Source of the DNA: Chitinophagales bacterium
GTDB lineage: Bacteria; Bacteroidota; Bacteroidia; Chitinophagales; JADJOU01
NCBI GenBank assembly: GCA_016787225.1
Contig: JAEUUY010000029.1
Span: forward strand, 1-64,000
DNA: 64,000 nucleotides
Reading direction: 5' to 3'
Shown here in pieces: positions 58,346-64,000 of the stretch (the first letter of the stretch is position 1; each line of letters begins with the position of its first letter). Below the pieces are notes generated by a model. The model was given only the letters and a program-made list of their open reading frames with translations. It was not told where the DNA came from and did not search any database. The translations under genes and the position numbers were made by a program.

Positions 58346-58373
58346 TTGTCTTATAATTTACAGTATGTTATTT
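58346..58373. other. dif-like XerCD recombination site, left prophage junction
   Basis: The 28 bases read TTGTCTTATAA, centre TTTACA, GTATGTTATTT. They align with the bacterial dif pattern GGTGCGCATAA, TGTATA, TTATGTTAAAT: the ATAA inner left arm and TATGTTA right arm match and the spacer is 6 nt. The site lies exactly between the last chromosomal gene and the first phage-like gene. Phages that use host XerCD integrate at dif and leave dif-like junctions on both sides. The right junction would be beyond the window. Confidence 0.6.
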
Positions 58374-58379
58374 TGTGAA

Positions 58380-58802
58380 TTAAAATTCACATTCACTAAC
58401 GGTTAATTTAAATTTGTATAATGAAGGATAATCATATGCAATCATGTAATTTAAATCTATTGCAATATAACCATTTTCAATTGAATTTGAAAAAAACAAT
58501 TTATTTGTGTCTGTTTTTACAATAGGTATGGCACTCACTGAATTTTCTCCTATTTGTTGAATTTTTGCTTTATTATTATTTACCCAAATAATGTAAGATG
58601 AAGTAGTATATTTTTGGGCTATAATAGATTCAACAAAGTGTCTATTTGAAGAAGCTAAAAAAGAAGAAGCCATATTTGATATAACTTTATTAGATTCTTT
58701 TTTTATTTCTTCATATTCGGAAGTAAGTATATATTTTTTGCAATTTTGAGCATTTAAATTAAATGCAGCTAATAAAAAAAAGCCTAAAATTTTTGCGTGC
58801 AT
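58380..58802 (-). CDS. Secreted 140-residue protein at the prophage edge
   Basis: Signal peptide MHAKILGFFLLAAFNLNAQ, cleaved after AQ. The mature part of ~121 residues is not recognised; its C-terminal half is strand-rich (GYIAIDLNYMIAYDYPSLYK) with one Cys near each end (NCKKYILT and VSECEF) that could form a disulfide. It is the gene nearest the dif-like site and has its own consensus promoter (58819-58848). It could be a lysogen-expressed accessory gene, for instance for surface exclusion, or a phage-borne secreted factor. It could also belong to the chromosome if the junction lies elsewhere. Confidence 0.6.
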   Translation of the reverse strand: MHAKILGFFLLAAFNLNAQNCKKYILTSEYEEIKKESNKVISNMASSFLASSNRHFVESIIAQKYTTSSYIIWVNNNKAKIQQIGENSVSAIPIVKTDTNKLFFSNSIENGYIAIDLNYMIAYDYPSLYKFKLTVSECEF

Positions 58803-58818
58803 GGTATTAAATTTTAGG

Positions 58819-58848
58819 CAAAGTTAATTAATTTAATTAACTTGTCAA
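58819..58848 (-). promoter_or_regulatory. Consensus promoter of the secreted protein gene
   Basis: On the minus strand TTG (58848-58846), 19 nt, then TAACTTTG (58826-58819): an exact match to the Bacteroidota promoter pattern, 16 nt before the ATG at 58802. Host-type sigma recognition would allow expression in the silent prophage state. Confidence 0.65.
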
Positions 58849-59168
58849 GTATTTTTTTTGCAAACCACTAAATAATTTTGGTTTGCTTGATATCCTACTA
58901 CAACAGAAGCAGTTTTTATAAAATCTTGATTATCGAATAAATCCCAATTCATAAAGAAAAAATCCTTATACCTTTCGTATTGCGGAAATATTTCCGTAGG
59001 GAAGCCAGGTTGATCCTTTATGTATTCGTTAACTAAATCTTTTGTTTGATCTACAGGAATAATTGAAGGAAGTGGGACCAATCCTTGAGGATTGATAAAA
59101 CTAGAGGTAATTTTTAAATTACCTTGAGAATCAGTTGCAAATACTCTAAATTCGAAATTACTGCTCAT
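58845..59168 (-). CDS. Phage-region hypothetical protein, 107 residues
   Basis: I do not recognise this protein. It is soluble and strand-rich (NFEFRVFATDSQGNLKITSS, KTASVVVGYQANQNYLVVCK), with Pro-rich PQGLVPLPSIIPVDQTK. The ATG at 59168 starts 1 nt after the upstream gene's stop and is preferred to an ATG four codons earlier that overlaps it. It may be a small structural protein. Confidence 0.6.
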   Translation of the reverse strand: MSSNFEFRVFATDSQGNLKITSSFINPQGLVPLPSIIPVDQTKDLVNEYIKDQPGFPTEIFPQYERYKDFFFMNWDLFDNQDFIKTASVVVGYQANQNYLVVCKKNT

Positions 59169-59169
59169 A

Positions 59170-59589
59170 TTAGTATCCAAAATATTTTTTTTGCAATGGT
59201 TTAAGCATATCTATTTCTCTGCTATCCTCAGGACGTGCAAGAGTTTTTCTTATATCTGTTTTGAGAACCCGATTTGTTTGGTCATAGTAGTACTCATTTA
59301 AAAGATTTAGTAATTTTTCGTTTGGTATTTCATTGAGGGCATTAACTATTATAATTTCGTCGCTATTGTGCCATGTATCGGTAATCTTTTGTGATTGAAT
59401 CATATCAAAAACACGCTTGACAAGCTTAATTTCGCTTGAAGTTACTTTATATGCGCTCGCGTCAATATCGTCGCTTAGATTTTCAGCTGGTTTTTTTGCT
59501 ATAGATAACAAAGAGAAAATTATATCCTTGAATATCAAGAATATAATTACTAAAAATATAAGTCCTTTGTATTTAGAAAGAAATTGCAT
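59170..59589 (-). CDS. Phage-region protein with N-terminal membrane anchor
   Basis: 139 residues. A single N-terminal membrane segment (YKGLIFLVIIFLIFKDIIFSL) is followed by a soluble, mainly helical domain with KLVKRVFDMIQSQKI and NEKLLNLLNEYYYDQTNRVL. No family recognised. It overlaps the muramidase gene by 17 nt. A virion membrane protein or lysis accessory is possible. Confidence 0.6.
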   Translation of the reverse strand: MQFLSKYKGLIFLVIIFLIFKDIIFSLLSIAKKPAENLSDDIDASAYKVTSSEIKLVKRVFDMIQSQKITDTWHNSDEIIIVNALNEIPNEKLLNLLNEYYYDQTNRVLKTDIRKTLARPEDSREIDMLKPLQKKYFGY

Positions 59590-60169
59590 TTTTTATAGTT
59601 TTATAATTTAATGCTGCTACTATTCCTAAAGGAATCAGCCAATTTGCAGAGATTATAGAATTGTCTTTAGTAGGCAATAAATGGTCAGCTTTTAAAAATT
59701 CTAATAGTGTAGATAGCTTTTTGGCTGGTTGTGGAGTTCCACCAAAAATGTGATACTCTTTACCATTATAATTGTAATATGAAGTATCATTTTGAAAAGG
59801 TAAAGAAGCCCATTCTCTAGAGCATTTTTTAATGGCTTCAATCCAATTTCCGTTTAATACGTCGTTTTCTGCACCTCGTAATTTTATAAGATATAATGCA
59901 GCAGAATCCTGAGAACTAGGTGAAAAATCTTTTAGTCCAAGTGCTTTAACGCACATTTCCCATGTGCCTTTAACAATTTGATAAGCACCTTGAGCGGTAA
60001 TATCTTTACCATTAAATGGTACGGCTGGAGCTCTTTTAAGAAAGTTCGTTATATGCGGTTCGGTATAGTTAAAACGAACAGCATAGGGTAAAACTCCTTG
60101 TTTTACCCTTAAGTCCGTTCCTTCGGCGAACATTATTAATCTCAAAAACTTAGACTGGTTTTTAGTCAC
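59573..60169 (-). CDS. GH104-type muramidase/lytic enzyme with C-terminal membrane anchor
   Basis: 198 residues. The lysozyme fold shows RLIMFAEGTDLR with the likely catalytic Glu near 16, then ITAQGAYQIVKGTWEMCVKA, LKDFSPSSQDSAALYLIKLR and REWASLP, in the order seen in the GH104 family (lambda R/SAR-type transglycosylases). Unlike lambda R it ends with a hydrophobic segment SANWLIPLGIVAALNY plus basic residues, a likely membrane anchor. Such an enzyme could be virion-bound and open peptidoglycan on entry, as in membrane-containing phages, and also lyse the host. The start is GTG. Catalytic mechanism (hydrolase or transglycosylase) is not resolved. Confidence 0.82.
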   Translation of the reverse strand: MTKNQSKFLRLIMFAEGTDLRVKQGVLPYAVRFNYTEPHITNFLKRAPAVPFNGKDITAQGAYQIVKGTWEMCVKALGLKDFSPSSQDSAALYLIKLRGAENDVLNGNWIEAIKKCSREWASLPFQNDTSYYNYNGKEYHIFGGTPQPAKKLSTLLEFLKADHLLPTKDNSIISANWLIPLGIVAALNYKTIKNAISF

Positions 60170-60172
60170 AAC

Positions 60173-60331
60173 TTACTTTTTTTCTTTACGCAAAAAGTTT
60201 AAGAATTTTGGAAGTTTCTCGGTGTCCAACATGGTGTCTATGAAACCATTAGAACGAGCTTTTAAGGTAATAAAAACTCCTAAAACGCATAGAATTAGGA
60301 TTATCCATGAAAATAATTTAGATTTGAACAT
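60173..60331 (-). CDS. Small phage membrane protein, 52 residues
   Basis: Reads MFKSKLFSWIILILCVLGVF then ITLKARSNGFIDTMLDTEKL and ends LRKEKK. One N-terminal membrane segment with basic residues on both sides. It fills the gap between the holin-like gene and the muramidase, ending 3 nt before the latter. It may be a lysis protein (spanin-like or second holin) or a virion membrane protein. Confidence 0.6.
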   Translation of the reverse strand: MFKSKLFSWIILILCVLGVFITLKARSNGFIDTMLDTEKLPKFLNFLRKEKK

Positions 60332-60347
60332 ATGATTTAATTTTTAG

Positions 60348-60551
60348 TTAATGATTTTTTGTGATTTCTTTATACTTTATAATTCTGTCGAATAGTAATA
60401 CTACAGTTGATACAACAAAATAGCCGACCATGGCATAAAATTTAATATCTTCTTGTGCAGTAGAATTAGCTATTAATTGCGTTGTGGCAACACCACCAAC
60501 AGTATAACCACCTGTAAATAGAGTATCTCGCATTGAATCAAGATTAAACAT
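60348..60551 (-). CDS. Holin-like phage membrane protein, 67 residues
   Basis: 67 residues with a first hydrophobic stretch GGYTVGGVATTQLI and a stronger one IKFYAMVGYFVVSTVVLLFD, ending in basic RIIKYKEITKNH. Size, two-segment topology, charged tail and the position just upstream of the muramidase suit a class II holin. A structural membrane protein is the alternative. It overlaps the preceding small gene by 8 nt. Confidence 0.6.
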   Translation of the reverse strand: MFNLDSMRDTLFTGGYTVGGVATTQLIANSTAQEDIKFYAMVGYFVVSTVVLLFDRIIKYKEITKNH

Positions 60552-60690
60552 TTTCTTGGTTTATGGGTTGATCAAATGGAGTTTCTATTGGTGTTTCCAT
60601 TTCTTGCAATTTCTGCAACAAATAGGTGAGAGCAGCTATAGTTATAGTGCGAACTAATTGATTTTTAAAATATTTTTCTAATCCGAACAT
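60544..60690 (-). CDS. Small phage protein, 48 residues
   Basis: Reads MFGLEKYFKNQLVRTITIAA, LTYLLQKLQE, then an acidic tail METPIETPFDQPINQENV. It has one short amphipathic or membrane-interacting helix. It is tightly fitted between the basic protein gene (11-nt gap) and the holin-like gene (8-nt overlap), which is the main support. Function unknown. Confidence 0.5.
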   Translation of the reverse strand: MFGLEKYFKNQLVRTITIAALTYLLQKLQEMETPIETPFDQPINQENV

Positions 60691-60701
60691 AATAAATTAT
60701 T

Positions 60702-60938
60702 TTAGTAACGTCTACGACGTGATGATTTACGCATTTCTTTTCCAATAGTTCTGCCTAAAGTTTTTGCCATGTTATATGCAGTCTTTTTGGCTGCTCTTCT
60801 TTTTGCTACAGCTTTATTATGATTAGATAAGTCTTTTTTTTCGGAATCCGAAAGTTTATCATAGACAGCCTTAGGCAATTTGACTATTCCTTTTCCAAAG
60901 TTAATTTTTTTAGAATCTCCTAGTAATTGTTCTAACAT
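60702..60938 (-). CDS. Arg/Lys-rich phage protein, possible genome-condensing core protein
   Basis: 78 residues, strongly basic. The N-terminal half has GKGIVKLPKAVYDKLSDSEK. The C-terminal half is a nucleic-acid-binding-like stretch ending in KTLGRTIGKEMRKSSRRRRY. Small basic proteins like this package or neutralise genomes in small tailless phages. No family is recognised. It lies 2 nt before the next upstream gene's stop. Confidence 0.6.
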   Translation of the reverse strand: MLEQLLGDSKKINFGKGIVKLPKAVYDKLSDSEKKDLSNHNKAVAKRRAAKKTAYNMAKTLGRTIGKEMRKSSRRRRY

Positions 60939-60940
60939 GA

Positions 60941-61144
60941 TTATGAATTTAATTTGTTAATGAATTTTTTATATAAGTAATAAGCTAGCAAGTTACCAAT
61001 AATTAATATTATTACGAGCTTCCAATTTTTCTTTAACAAGTCAGTGAATAAAGAAAAAATTCTAGATAAAAAGCTAGGTTTTTTTAATTCCGTAGCTTGT
61101 AGGTCTAAATATTCTATTTCATTGGTTATTACAGCTGCACTCAC
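60941..61144 (-). CDS. Small phage membrane protein, 67 residues
   Basis: 67 residues from a GTG whose last bases overlap the upstream TGA stop (GTGA). Polar N terminus SAAVITNEIEYLDLQATELK, an amphipathic FLSRIFSLFTDLLKKNW and a C-terminal membrane segment KLVIILIIGNLLAYYLYKKF. A longer frame starting at 61201 would overlap the upstream gene by 60 nt and is less likely. Probably a virion membrane protein. Confidence 0.6.
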   Translation of the reverse strand: MSAAVITNEIEYLDLQATELKKPSFLSRIFSLFTDLLKKNWKLVIILIIGNLLAYYLYKKFINKLNS

Positions 61145-61578
61145 TTTATTATGAATTTTTTTAATGCAAAAACTAAACCAAGAATAAAGACAGGAAGCCA
61201 ATATTTTTGGTTTTGGTTAACTGCTTCTGTTTTTACTGCGCTAAGAGCACCACGAATTGCAGAATCTAATACGGTGTTTCCAGAAGTACCACCGCCAGCA
61301 ACAATCTTTACAATATCTAATCTATCTCGTAAGAATTTAGCAACTAAATCCTCAGTAGTTTTTTCAAGTTGGTCTAAAACAGGGTTTTCTCCCATTTTTA
61401 GATTAACAGATTCAACAGGCTTTGCCTTGATTAAATCATTTTGGACCATGTCAGATTTTTTTATTTCAACAGGTCCTGTAGGAACTTGTTTCAAAATGTC
61501 GATTTGTCGCTGAGACATTCCGCCCATTGGATCACCAAATGAAACAATATCTTTAAATAAAGAATTTAAAACGGCCAT
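61141..61578 (-). CDS. Phage membrane-anchored protein, 145 residues
   Basis: 145 residues. The N terminus MAVLNSLFKDIVSFGDPMGG is followed by a polar middle (NPVLDQLEKTTEDLVAKFLR), a Gly-rich turn VAGGGTSGNTVLDSAIRGAL and a C-terminal membrane segment KYWLPVFILGLVFALKKFII. Tail-anchored plan, as in the crystallin-like protein upstream, whose stop overlaps this start by 1 nt. A penton-base or vertex role is conceivable; no family recognised. Confidence 0.6.
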   Translation of the reverse strand: MAVLNSLFKDIVSFGDPMGGMSQRQIDILKQVPTGPVEIKKSDMVQNDLIKAKPVESVNLKMGENPVLDQLEKTTEDLVAKFLRDRLDIVKIVAGGGTSGNTVLDSAIRGALSAVKTEAVNQNQKYWLPVFILGLVFALKKFIIK

Positions 61579-62288
61579 TATTTTTTAATTATGAAGAATG
61601 AAATGATTCCAACAATGACCCACATAAACATGTTGTTTGATTCTGTGGTTTGTTTGGTATTAGTCGTATTCGTTCCTGTATAACCAGAACTTGGTACGCC
61701 TGTTTGGTTACCTGTATAACCTACGGTAGTAGTTATAGGTTTGTTATTGACACTTATATCAATATCTTCTTTTGCAGGGTCGGTTGTTGGTTTAAAAGAG
61801 ATATTTGAAGGATTTTTATAAGCTGGTGTTAAAGATACCTTAACGCTGCTTATTCTGTCGTTCCAATAGGGCCAATCTTGATACAAGTTTACAAAATTTA
61901 GTGTGCCTTTCCTAGTTCCATAACTGCCTTGCATTGTGCCTCCTGTAATAGAATCTTTTAAGCCTCCGAAATTGGGGTGTTCAAAAAATTCTACTTTAAC
62001 GCCTGTATCAACTTCTATTGAGCTAATGGTGTCATGCCAATTTGTACCATGGATAAAAAAATCGCTTAGATTAGTTGGCTCGGTGAACACTATAGCACCT
62101 CCATTTTTTTCGGGGTGATTGTAAAGAATGGCTATAGGATATTTACCTTTGCCAATTATTACATTGTTTCTATCCTGTAGTACATGATCTCTCCTTGCTA
62201 TGTCAGCAGCAGAATCACCACCGAAAAGGTCACCTATTAAACCTACTCCGACTTTAGCAAGACCTAGACCTACTCCTATAATACTCAT
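61578..62288 (-). CDS. Beta-gamma-crystallin-domain phage protein with C-terminal anchor
   Basis: 236 residues. Residues about 50-150 hold a pair of beta-gamma-crystallin (Greek key) motifs: KYPIAILYNHPEKNGGAIVF with HDTISSIEVDTG, then VKVEFFEHPNFGGLKDSITG with NDRISSVKVSL. The (D/N)xxSS stretches are the usual calcium-binding positions. A Thr/Asn/Gly-rich linker (YTGNQTGVPSSGYTGTNTTN) leads to the membrane segment MFMWVIVGIISFFIIKK. This is the design of a stalked surface protein: head, flexible stalk, membrane anchor. I infer a vertex spike or host-binding protein. It follows the capsid candidate by 21 nt. Confidence 0.75.
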   Translation of the reverse strand: MSIIGVGLGLAKVGVGLIGDLFGGDSAADIARRDHVLQDRNNVIIGKGKYPIAILYNHPEKNGGAIVFTEPTNLSDFFIHGTNWHDTISSIEVDTGVKVEFFEHPNFGGLKDSITGGTMQGSYGTRKGTLNFVNLYQDWPYWNDRISSVKVSLTPAYKNPSNISFKPTTDPAKEDIDISVNNKPITTTVGYTGNQTGVPSSGYTGTNTTNTKQTTESNNMFMWVIVGIISFFIIKK

Positions 62289-62309
62289 ATTGTATTTATT
62301 TAGATTTGT

Positions 62310-63125
62310 TTAAACAAATTGTTCTTCAATAATTGAGTAGTAGAATTGAGTGTCCTCGGCATGCTTCAATTTGATCATTGTTAGCATGGAACTTCTAGAC
62401 CAGCCTGTCAAATCAATGGCAATAGAGCCTGAATAATTTGAACATAAGTGGTTTTTTGCAACAACTCCTATAGATTGAGTAGAATTATTTAGAAAATCTA
62501 GCTCTCTAGCTATTAAGGTGTTAGTGACTCCGTTTGAAAAATTCAGGTCAATTTCTCTTAAAGAGTCCAAAATAACATACTTCTGTCCAATATATTTAAT
62601 TGGGGTAAATTGTCCGGCGTGAGCGGTATCTCTATAAAGACAATTCAAAGACAATGAGCGGTCGGCAGTTGTAGAAATTGCGTATAGTTGGCATTTAACA
62701 TCTGCGTTGTTTGAAGTTATTGAAACATTCAACCAACCTTTATTGGAAAATGGAACTTGTCCTGTAGAAATGAGATAAGGTACAGTGATAATAACCTTAT
62801 CATTTTCTGTAGCTTTGAGTAAAATAGGAAGATTTGCAGTTTGTGCAGCTAGGGCAATTTCATGCAAAGTAAGATTTGAAATAAGATTTTTTGACTTAAT
62901 TAGTGGTGTATCCAAAGAAACCTCTACTTTTTTGAGAACGTTCTCTATAATAGGGGAAAATTCAGAATCTTCTTTGCGAAGTAAATTATTTACTTCGTCT
63001 AAGTCATTGCCTTGTCCATAGCTTAAATTAGATTCTACCTCAAAAAAAAGTAAATTGCAAGGCTCTGTAATTTTTTCGTTTCTTAATTGTAACACGTTGG
63101 TTACTTGGTGCGCTATAATTGACAT
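62310..63125 (-). CDS. Candidate major capsid protein, 271 residues
   Basis: 271 residues, no membrane segment, predicted to be almost all beta-strand after a helical N-terminal third (KVIITVPYLISTGQVPFSNK, VKCQLYAISTTADRSLSLNC, KYVILDSLREIDLNFSNGVT). It is the first gene after the phage promoter and the largest soluble structural candidate. The length is close to double-jelly-roll capsid proteins of small membrane-containing phages. I recognise no sequence family; the capsid call rests on position, size and strand content. A structure prediction would decide. Confidence 0.5.
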   Translation of the reverse strand: MSIIAHQVTNVLQLRNEKITEPCNLLFFEVESNLSYGQGNDLDEVNNLLRKEDSEFSPIIENVLKKVEVSLDTPLIKSKNLISNLTLHEIALAAQTANLPILLKATENDKVIITVPYLISTGQVPFSNKGWLNVSITSNNADVKCQLYAISTTADRSLSLNCLYRDTAHAGQFTPIKYIGQKYVILDSLREIDLNFSNGVTNTLIARELDFLNNSTQSIGVVAKNHLCSNYSGSIAIDLTGWSRSSMLTMIKLKHAEDTQFYYSIIEEQFV

Positions 63126-63150
63126 GTGATTTAATTTTTTAATTACAACG

Positions 63151-63158
63151 CAAAAATA
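63151..63158 (-). promoter_or_regulatory. Minus-7 box of the phage structural operon
   Basis: On the minus strand TATTTTTG fits TAnnTTTG, 25 nt before the capsid candidate's ATG at 63125, in the short gap after the replication gene. No clear TTG is at the usual distance, so it may need a phage activator. Confidence 0.45.
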
Positions 63159-63164
63159 TAAAGC

Positions 63165-64000
63165 CTAGGAATGAGTGAAATATCTTATTCGCTTTTTTTC
63201 GCTCATTAGCTTAGGGATAAGGCTTGTACCGTTTTGCTCGTTTAATTTATGCATTAATTCCATTAAAAAGTCGTGTATTTCTATGATTTTCTGCCTTTTA
63301 GTCTTTCTAATTTCATTGATTTTTAAGGTTATGTCTCTTTCGTCATGTTTTAAAGGCTTAATTTTTTTTGATTTGAAATAAAAAGAGGGTACAATTTCAA
63401 CAAATTTTCGCTCAAGATAGTACCAATTATATGGATGCCATTGAACAACTGCATTTGCAAAGTATTGATAGTTGTAATTATCCAAAATTTCATTGTCCAG
63501 ATATTGGTAAATATAGTAGGTGTAAATTTGTTTTTCAAATCTATAGTTTGCTTCCTTGGTCCATTTATGTTTTTCGATTTTAAAGTTTTGGTTAAATATA
63601 AATTCTATAGGTTTTTCATTGTCAGTTCGAGGTAAATAAAGGAATTTCAAATCTTCATTTATTATTTGAAAATATAGAAGTTTGCAATAGTTTAGAAAGT
63701 CTGGTGAAAGTAAATGGTTTGAAATTTCTATAATTTCACCTGTATCTTTTGAGTAGGTATTTCTTTCCGAGTTAAAAGGTTTTCTATGGTAAATAGTGTT
63801 GCCTTGCAAATCTGTTTCAGTGAATTGGACGTATTCAGTAGAATTATTTAGAAAATATTGCTTGAGTTTGTCTTTGGTTAGACGTATTTCAAAGCGATAG
63901 ACTTTTTCAAACAATATTTTATTTATTTCAAAATATTCCAGGATATAGTCCTTGTTTTTTTTGATTTTCAGTTCCTGCATTTTTTCGTAGAAAGAAAACC
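63165..64000 (-). CDS. Phage protein cut by the window edge, possible rolling-circle replication initiator
   Basis: At least 277 residues. The frame stays open to the edge (FSFYEK precedes the first ATG at 63980), so that ATG may be internal. FYEKMQEL followed by EKVYRFEIRLTKDKLKQYFL resembles the C-terminal region of gene II/X-type HUH replication initiators, in which a YxK motif precedes an RxEVR-like strand. The HUH motif itself would lie outside the window. The rest is basic and aromatic (WHPYNWYYLERKFVEIVPSF). The call is moderate; it could be an unrelated early phage protein. Confidence 0.45.
   Translation of the reverse strand, partial: FSFYEKMQELKIKKNKDYILEYFEINKILFEKVYRFEIRLTKDKLKQYFLNNSTEYVQFTETDLQGNTIYHRKPFNSERNTYSKDTGEIIEISNHLLSPDFLNYCKLLYFQIINEDLKFLYLPRTDNEKPIEFIFNQNFKIEKHKWTKEANYRFEKQIYTYYIYQYLDNEILDNYNYQYFANAVVQWHPYNWYYLERKFVEIVPSFYFKSKKIKPLKHDERDITLKINEIRKTKRQKIIEIHDFLMELMHKLNEQNGTSLIPKLMSEKKRIRYFTHS

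Follow-up and report, generated by a model that had tools for sequence, protein, structure and literature searches.

The closest described systems to the element analyzed here are phages of the phiCjT23 kind. phiCjT23 itself (ON067806; Kejzar et al. 2022, PMC9719478) is a temperate, single-stranded DNA (ssDNA), membrane-containing phage with a double-jelly-roll capsid, whose gene follows that of the replication initiator, rep. Virions of this kind are pseudo-T=21, with an internal lipid membrane. Fifty-seven putative phiCjT23-like Flavobacterium prophages of 6,021–8,407 bp have been located at dif (PMC9719478). We analyzed a 64,000-nucleotide stretch of DNA from a Chitinophagales bacterium (hereafter the window), which is the first 64 kb of the 130.8-kb contig JAEUUY010000029.1 (C29), and read onward past its edge. 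The element in question spans contig positions 58346–66689, is complete at 8,344 bp, and ends 2.7 kb beyond the window. It is likely the entire provirus of a phage of the phiCjT23 kind, temperate and tailless with rolling-circle replication, and probably a deeply diverged new member of that ssDNA, membrane-containing type. An initial annotation, made from the sequence of the window alone, had taken FLiP (Finnlakeviridae) or PM2 (Corticoviridae) as the nearest match and had suggested a new lineage or an unusual lysogenic branch. The nearest known kind is instead phiCjT23, for which lysogeny is not unusual: the phage is temperate and its dif-integrated prophages are published (PMC9719478).

The element is bounded by the two copies of a 30-bp direct repeat, 90% identical (58346–58375 and contig 66690–66719, 8,344 bp apart), arranged like a XerC/XerD recombination site. 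The left copy, attL (TTGTCTTATAATTTACAGTATGTTATTTTG, 58346–58375, plus strand), is a hybrid dif-like site and coincides with the left boundary of the initial annotation. Its partner attR (contig C29:66690–66719) contains the dif core TATAATTTACATTATGTTAA exactly, and the XerD-side arm of attL is a variant that presumably came from the phage. In each of three congeners (L066, L067 and L068), a single exact copy of the core TATAATTTACATTATGTTAA lies in syntenic position, directly after genes for RibD, a DMT transporter and a GNAT acetyltransferase. These genes flank the element here too, the GNAT protein being 66–77% identical to those of the congeners; in congener G002, the contig ends inside the transporter gene. 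This core is the chromosomal dif core of the genus, and no phage-like insert is present at the dif sites of the three congeners. Because dif-like copies flank the element here and the exact core marks the empty syntenic site in three congeners, a mobile circle has been inserted into the chromosomal dif of the host. No integrase gene was recognized within the element. Two host tyrosine recombinases, which at 309 and 304 aa have the size of XerC/XerD, are encoded outside it, and we infer that XerC and XerD carry out the insertion. Beside phiCjT23, Xer-exploiting phages such as CTX are a model for this use of XerC/XerD. Similar dif-type sites were found in phage phi18:4, in genomes G703 and G718, and in Flavobacterium prophages. 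GC skew around the site was too noisy to locate the terminus; gene-strand bias alone switches near the site.

Two thirds of the element lies in the window (58346–64000) and the remainder at contig 64001–66689. Between the repeat copies are 19 open reading frames (ORFs), all on the minus strand and covering 94% of the sequence; minus-strand ORFs of at least 45 aa cover 91% of the element, whereas 200 shuffles averaged 6% and never exceeded 18%. The G+C content is 30.9%, versus 35.1% for the contig. In order of transcription, the ORFs encode proteins of 62, 85, 80 and 99 aa, a 180-aa C5-methyltransferase-like protein (PHROG 757, E 1e-14), a 74-aa protein and the 482-aa Rep; then proteins of 271, 236, 145, 86, 78 (basic), 48, 67 and 52 aa; and last a 198-aa muramidase followed by proteins of 139, 111 and 140 aa. 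Where the initial annotation had counted at least twelve minus-strand genes, 13 minus-strand ORFs lie in 58346–64000, the 13th (rep) being cut by the window edge. Its description of an integrated, small, tailless, rolling-circle phage-like element rich in membrane proteins extends to the whole, in which no tail, terminase, portal, Zot or packaging-ATPase gene was recognized by Pfam, PHROGs and a Walker A scan. Reading past position 64000, as it had proposed, yielded the rest of rep and the right junction but no packaging ATPase; none of the tail, terminase or inovirus morphogenesis genes that it had named as grounds for rejection was recognized in the adjoining sequence. No Walker A motif occurs anywhere in the element, in keeping with the FLiP group, in which a packaging ATPase is lacking (PMC5894146). 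Such gene content largely refutes a filamentous (inovirus) or microvirus-type provirus. Some inoviruses, such as CTX, do insert themselves at dif and replicate with Rep_trans-type initiators, and microviruses are of similar size, but without a Walker A motif there is no Zot-type morphogenesis ATPase (nor did Pfam or PHROGs detect one), no match to a microvirus F-type capsid protein or other inovirus or microvirus family was found in PHROGs or Pfam, and a muramidase is present. We regard this origin as extremely improbable.

The possible rolling-circle initiator of the initial annotation belongs to the Rep_trans family (482 aa; 63165–64000, minus strand, the gene continuing to contig 64613). 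Its match to Pfam PF02486 (E 1.5e-5) lies under the curated cut-off, as does that of the phiCjT23 Rep. When compared by hhalign with a profile of the Rep proteins of phiCjT23, phi18:4, Omtje and the G718 provirus, it scored 53.9 (E 1.4e-6), the best of 100 shuffles reaching 26.4. This profile comparison indicates that Rep is homologous to those initiators. In phages, plasmids, IMG/VR and approximately 400 genomes each of the order and the class, the sole matches were weak ones to Rep_trans proteins from unrelated elements. Approximately 70 nt upstream of rep is a hairpin with an 8–9-bp stem and an 8-nt loop. Hairpins of similar geometry precede rep in phiCjT23 and in four of the five Flavobacterium prophages tested, and their background rate in the contig is 0.09 per kb; the hairpin is a candidate for, and probably is, the replication origin. 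A perfect 12-bp inverted repeat at contig C29:65067–65115 (L003:9067–9115), between the methyltransferase-like and 74-aa genes, is a candidate terminator or second replication signal.

The double-jelly-roll structure of the phiCjT23 capsid protein has been solved. In the position of its gene (gp5), directly after rep, the element encodes a 271-aa acidic soluble protein (62310–63125, minus strand), our candidate for the major capsid protein (MCP); by its place, this would be the expected capsid gene. That the protein is a double jelly roll is likely, although unproven. Compared with the phiCjT23-like capsid protein of G622, another genome of the class, it gave a Smith–Waterman score of 90 (z 5.9; 2 of 3000 shuffles equally good), and with the phiCjT23 MCP a Smith–Waterman p of 0.014 in the same register. 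The colinear matches include a motif near residues 186–208 (D-S-L ... N-G ... E-L). This sequence evidence for a double jelly roll is suggestive only. BLAST and HMMER found no real relatives of the protein in IMG/VR, GTDB contigs, 50,697 phage records or 398 genomes of the order; the initial annotation had called it a beta-rich capsid candidate, of which the ORF is confirmed and beta-rich is still a prediction. Weak matches in G044, G122, G392 and G394 were set aside because the ORFs concerned are long or cellular. The 271-aa protein also matched phrog_37082 (E 2.7e-4), suspected to be the FLiP capsid; this match was given no weight after a scan with the FLiP capsid failed to hit that PHROG.

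Several results weigh against a provirus of the phiCjT23 kind. No virion is known, no capsid gene was recognized with confidence, and no spike was identified by sequence. Against an eight-member capsid profile, the 271-aa protein scored 16.5, under the best shuffle (25.8; 1/100) and not significant. An earlier profile match, with a score of 24.7, dropped to this value as sequences were added, and we do not claim sequence homology. AlphaFold models of the protein were of low confidence (predicted local distance difference test, pLDDT, 31 alone and 37 with relatives). Foldseek placed the phiCjT23 capsid (7zzz) first for the relatives-aided model, as the sole match below E 0.001 (E 1.9e-4), but this match is circular because the input alignment held phiCjT23-type capsids and was picked among subsets for register. 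The hairpin upstream of rep is missing in phi18:4 and Omtje, and Rep_trans initiators are known from plasmids and integrative elements too.

The element might instead be a virus of like lifestyle with a different capsid, in which the 271-aa protein has a fold other than the double jelly roll and the virion is of another or a new type. The lack of a significant capsid match, the failure of AlphaFold to fold the protein and the crystallin-like 236-aa protein encoded beside it would fit. We nonetheless find this unlikely in view of the position, length and low isoelectric point (pI) of the 271-aa protein and its colinear, one-register match to the G622 and phiCjT23 capsids. Moreover, the FLiP capsid is known to be a double jelly roll and yet does no better than a shuffle against the phiCjT23 capsid family (z about 0), so the weak score of the 271-aa protein is uninformative and no evidence against that fold. 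With the same low probability, the element would represent a family-level lineage in which a capsid not of the phiCjT23/FLiP type (for example, with the 236-aa crystallin-like protein as a shell component) is combined with the same dif-integration and rolling-circle chassis. A non-viral, plasmid-like element integrated at dif (IMEX), made up of Rep plus cargo such as a methyltransferase and a wall hydrolase, seems very unlikely. It would account for the carriage of a C5-methyltransferase-like gene, plasmids and integrative elements commonly encode Rep_trans initiators, and the capsid is unproven; against it, no mobilization, partition or resistance genes were found in the element, Rep has no plasmid relative, and the genes overlap in phage style and encode a muramidase, a basic protein and numerous very small membrane proteins.

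The comparison with phiCjT23 and its prophages favors the provirus. Shared are dif integration without an integrase of their own, the Rep family and homology, and the hairpin upstream of rep; the 8,344 bp of the element falls inside the published range. The layout is also alike: rep is followed by an acidic soluble protein, then by one whose membrane segment is C-terminal, then by basic and small membrane proteins and, at the end, by a hydrophobic-tailed lytic enzyme, an approximately 140-aa protein with an N-terminal membrane segment and an acidic protein. Unlike phiCjT23, the element has a GH104 lytic enzyme, the methyltransferase-like gene and the crystallin-like 236-aa protein.

The remaining genes of the window portion, all on the minus strand, fit into this layout as follows. 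The 236-aa protein (61578–62288) is hydrophobic at its ends and contains a beta/gamma-crystallin-like domain of the inhibitor I36 type, its match to Pfam PF03995 (E 9e-5) passing the cut-off; it is possibly a minor capsid or spike protein. The 145-aa protein (61141–61578) has a C-terminal membrane segment and matches phiCjT23 gp6, phi18:4 gp5 and FLiP gp9 in position and layout; the 86-aa protein (60941–61201) also has a C-terminal membrane segment. They are followed by a strongly basic 78-aa protein (60702–60938, pI 10.6), possibly a DNA-condensing virion protein, a small 48-aa protein (60544–60690), and two single-membrane-segment proteins of 67 aa (60348–60551, holin-like as a prediction) and 52 aa (60173–60331). 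The 198-aa muramidase (59573–60169) is of the GH104 (lambda-lysozyme, lambda gpR) type, with a hydrophobic C-terminal tail; it matches PDB 1am7/3d3d (E 3e-14) and a PHROG endolysin (E 1e-23) and contains the EGTD motif. The muramidase, the basic protein and the several small single-membrane-segment proteins all bear out the initial annotation. The 139-aa protein (59170–59589), with a single N-terminal membrane segment, resembles phi18:4 gp9, phiCjT23 gp12 and FLiP gp11 in position and layout; its profile match to phi18:4 gp9 is confounded by the membrane segments, for both the 86-aa and the 145-aa protein score higher. An acidic soluble protein of 111 aa (58845–59180, pI 4.6) is a spike or penton candidate by its position and charge, which are those of phiCjT23 gp13, phi18:4 gp10 and FLiP gp12/13. 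The last gene before attL encodes a 140-aa protein (58380–58802) with a signal-peptide-like start and no convincing family match, possibly an accessory gene.

Obscuriviridae (Cellulophaga phages phi18:4, phi12:2 and Omtje) share with the element Rep homology, a dif-like sequence in the genome, and the order rep, capsid, membrane proteins, lytic enzyme, 138-aa protein and acidic protein; phi18:4 also matches in pI and membrane-segment layout. They differ in being free phages with no temperate lifestyle described, and their lytic enzyme carries the annotation endo-beta-N-acetylglucosaminidase instead of GH104. Rep, the capsid candidate and the 139- and 236-aa proteins have no BLAST-level match in phage records and no tblastn match to the protein clusters shared by Omtje and phi18:4, and the Rep homology is profile-level only. 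The dif-like sequences of phi18:4 and Omtje (L017:5168, L018:1123) resemble provirus integration sites, which suggests that these phages may be able to integrate. The Obscuriviridae 241-aa structural protein (phi18:4, Omtje) is approximately 35% identical to the phiCjT23 capsid protein over its full length (L017:1664–2389, L018:4157–4882, L014:2239–2958). By this sequence comparison, Obscuriviridae would be placed with the double-jelly-roll viruses; the International Committee on Taxonomy of Viruses lists them without a realm in 2025 (PMC12451628), and GenBank files their records under Microviridae. More phiCjT23-like capsid genes were seen in other genomes of the class (L049 in G703, L050 in G718, L051 in G622 and L069 in G825). 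In G622 and G825, the capsid gene stands behind an initiator of clearly different type, the replication module being swapped.

Finnlakeviridae (FLiP, FLiP-2) resemble the element in their small one-directional genome, lytic enzyme, small membrane proteins, acidic soluble capsid and lack of a packaging ATPase, and FLiP partly also in gene order, pI and membrane-segment layout. The overall gene order differs, however, and FLiP-type Rep and capsid have no detectable sequence similarity to the Rep and capsid candidate of the element. With Corticoviridae there is a common tailless membrane-phage style and nothing more: PM2 is a double-stranded DNA (dsDNA) phage encoding a packaging ATPase, and none of this type is present in the element by Walker A scan or family match. 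By the tests run, the element falls outside Finnlakeviridae, Obscuriviridae, Corticoviridae, Inoviridae and Microviridae. FLiP itself is non-integrating (PMC13269007). FLiP-like proviruses have already been reported in Sphingobacteriia (PMC13269007), so the existence of integrated relatives beyond Flavobacterium is in itself no novelty.

These comparisons suggest a life cycle in which a circular phage genome carrying a dif-like attP would be inserted and excised at dif by borrowed host XerC/XerD. After excision or infection, Rep would nick the origin, probably the hairpin upstream of rep, giving rise to single-stranded genomes. The virion would consist of a double-jelly-roll shell of the 271-aa protein around a membrane vesicle studded with small membrane proteins, the basic 78-aa protein may neutralize the DNA, and the tail-anchored muramidase would open the wall at entry or exit.

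Two observations concern the host DNA beyond the element. Adjoining attR is a gene for a bacterial homolog of Cys-loop (neurotransmitter-gated) channels (contig C29:66814–67806; L003:10814–11806), and no such gene was seen next to the empty dif sites in the congeners examined. Farther on (contig C29:69853–73689; L003:13853–17689), a single operon, which probably specifies a type II restriction–modification system, encodes a MutH-domain protein, a NucS-C-like protein and a complete C5 cytosine methyltransferase.

The integrated form of the phiCjT23 kind is already published (PMC9719478); what is new here is a deeply diverged member. It extends this kind to a divergence at which the proteins tested have no BLAST match in phage records, and because of this, such proviruses are probably missed by routine prophage finders; the dif site offers a simple way to find them. 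If the capsid fold is as predicted, the element would be a distantly related addition to the ssDNA double-jelly-roll viruses, which are used in arguing for links between ssDNA and dsDNA viruses.

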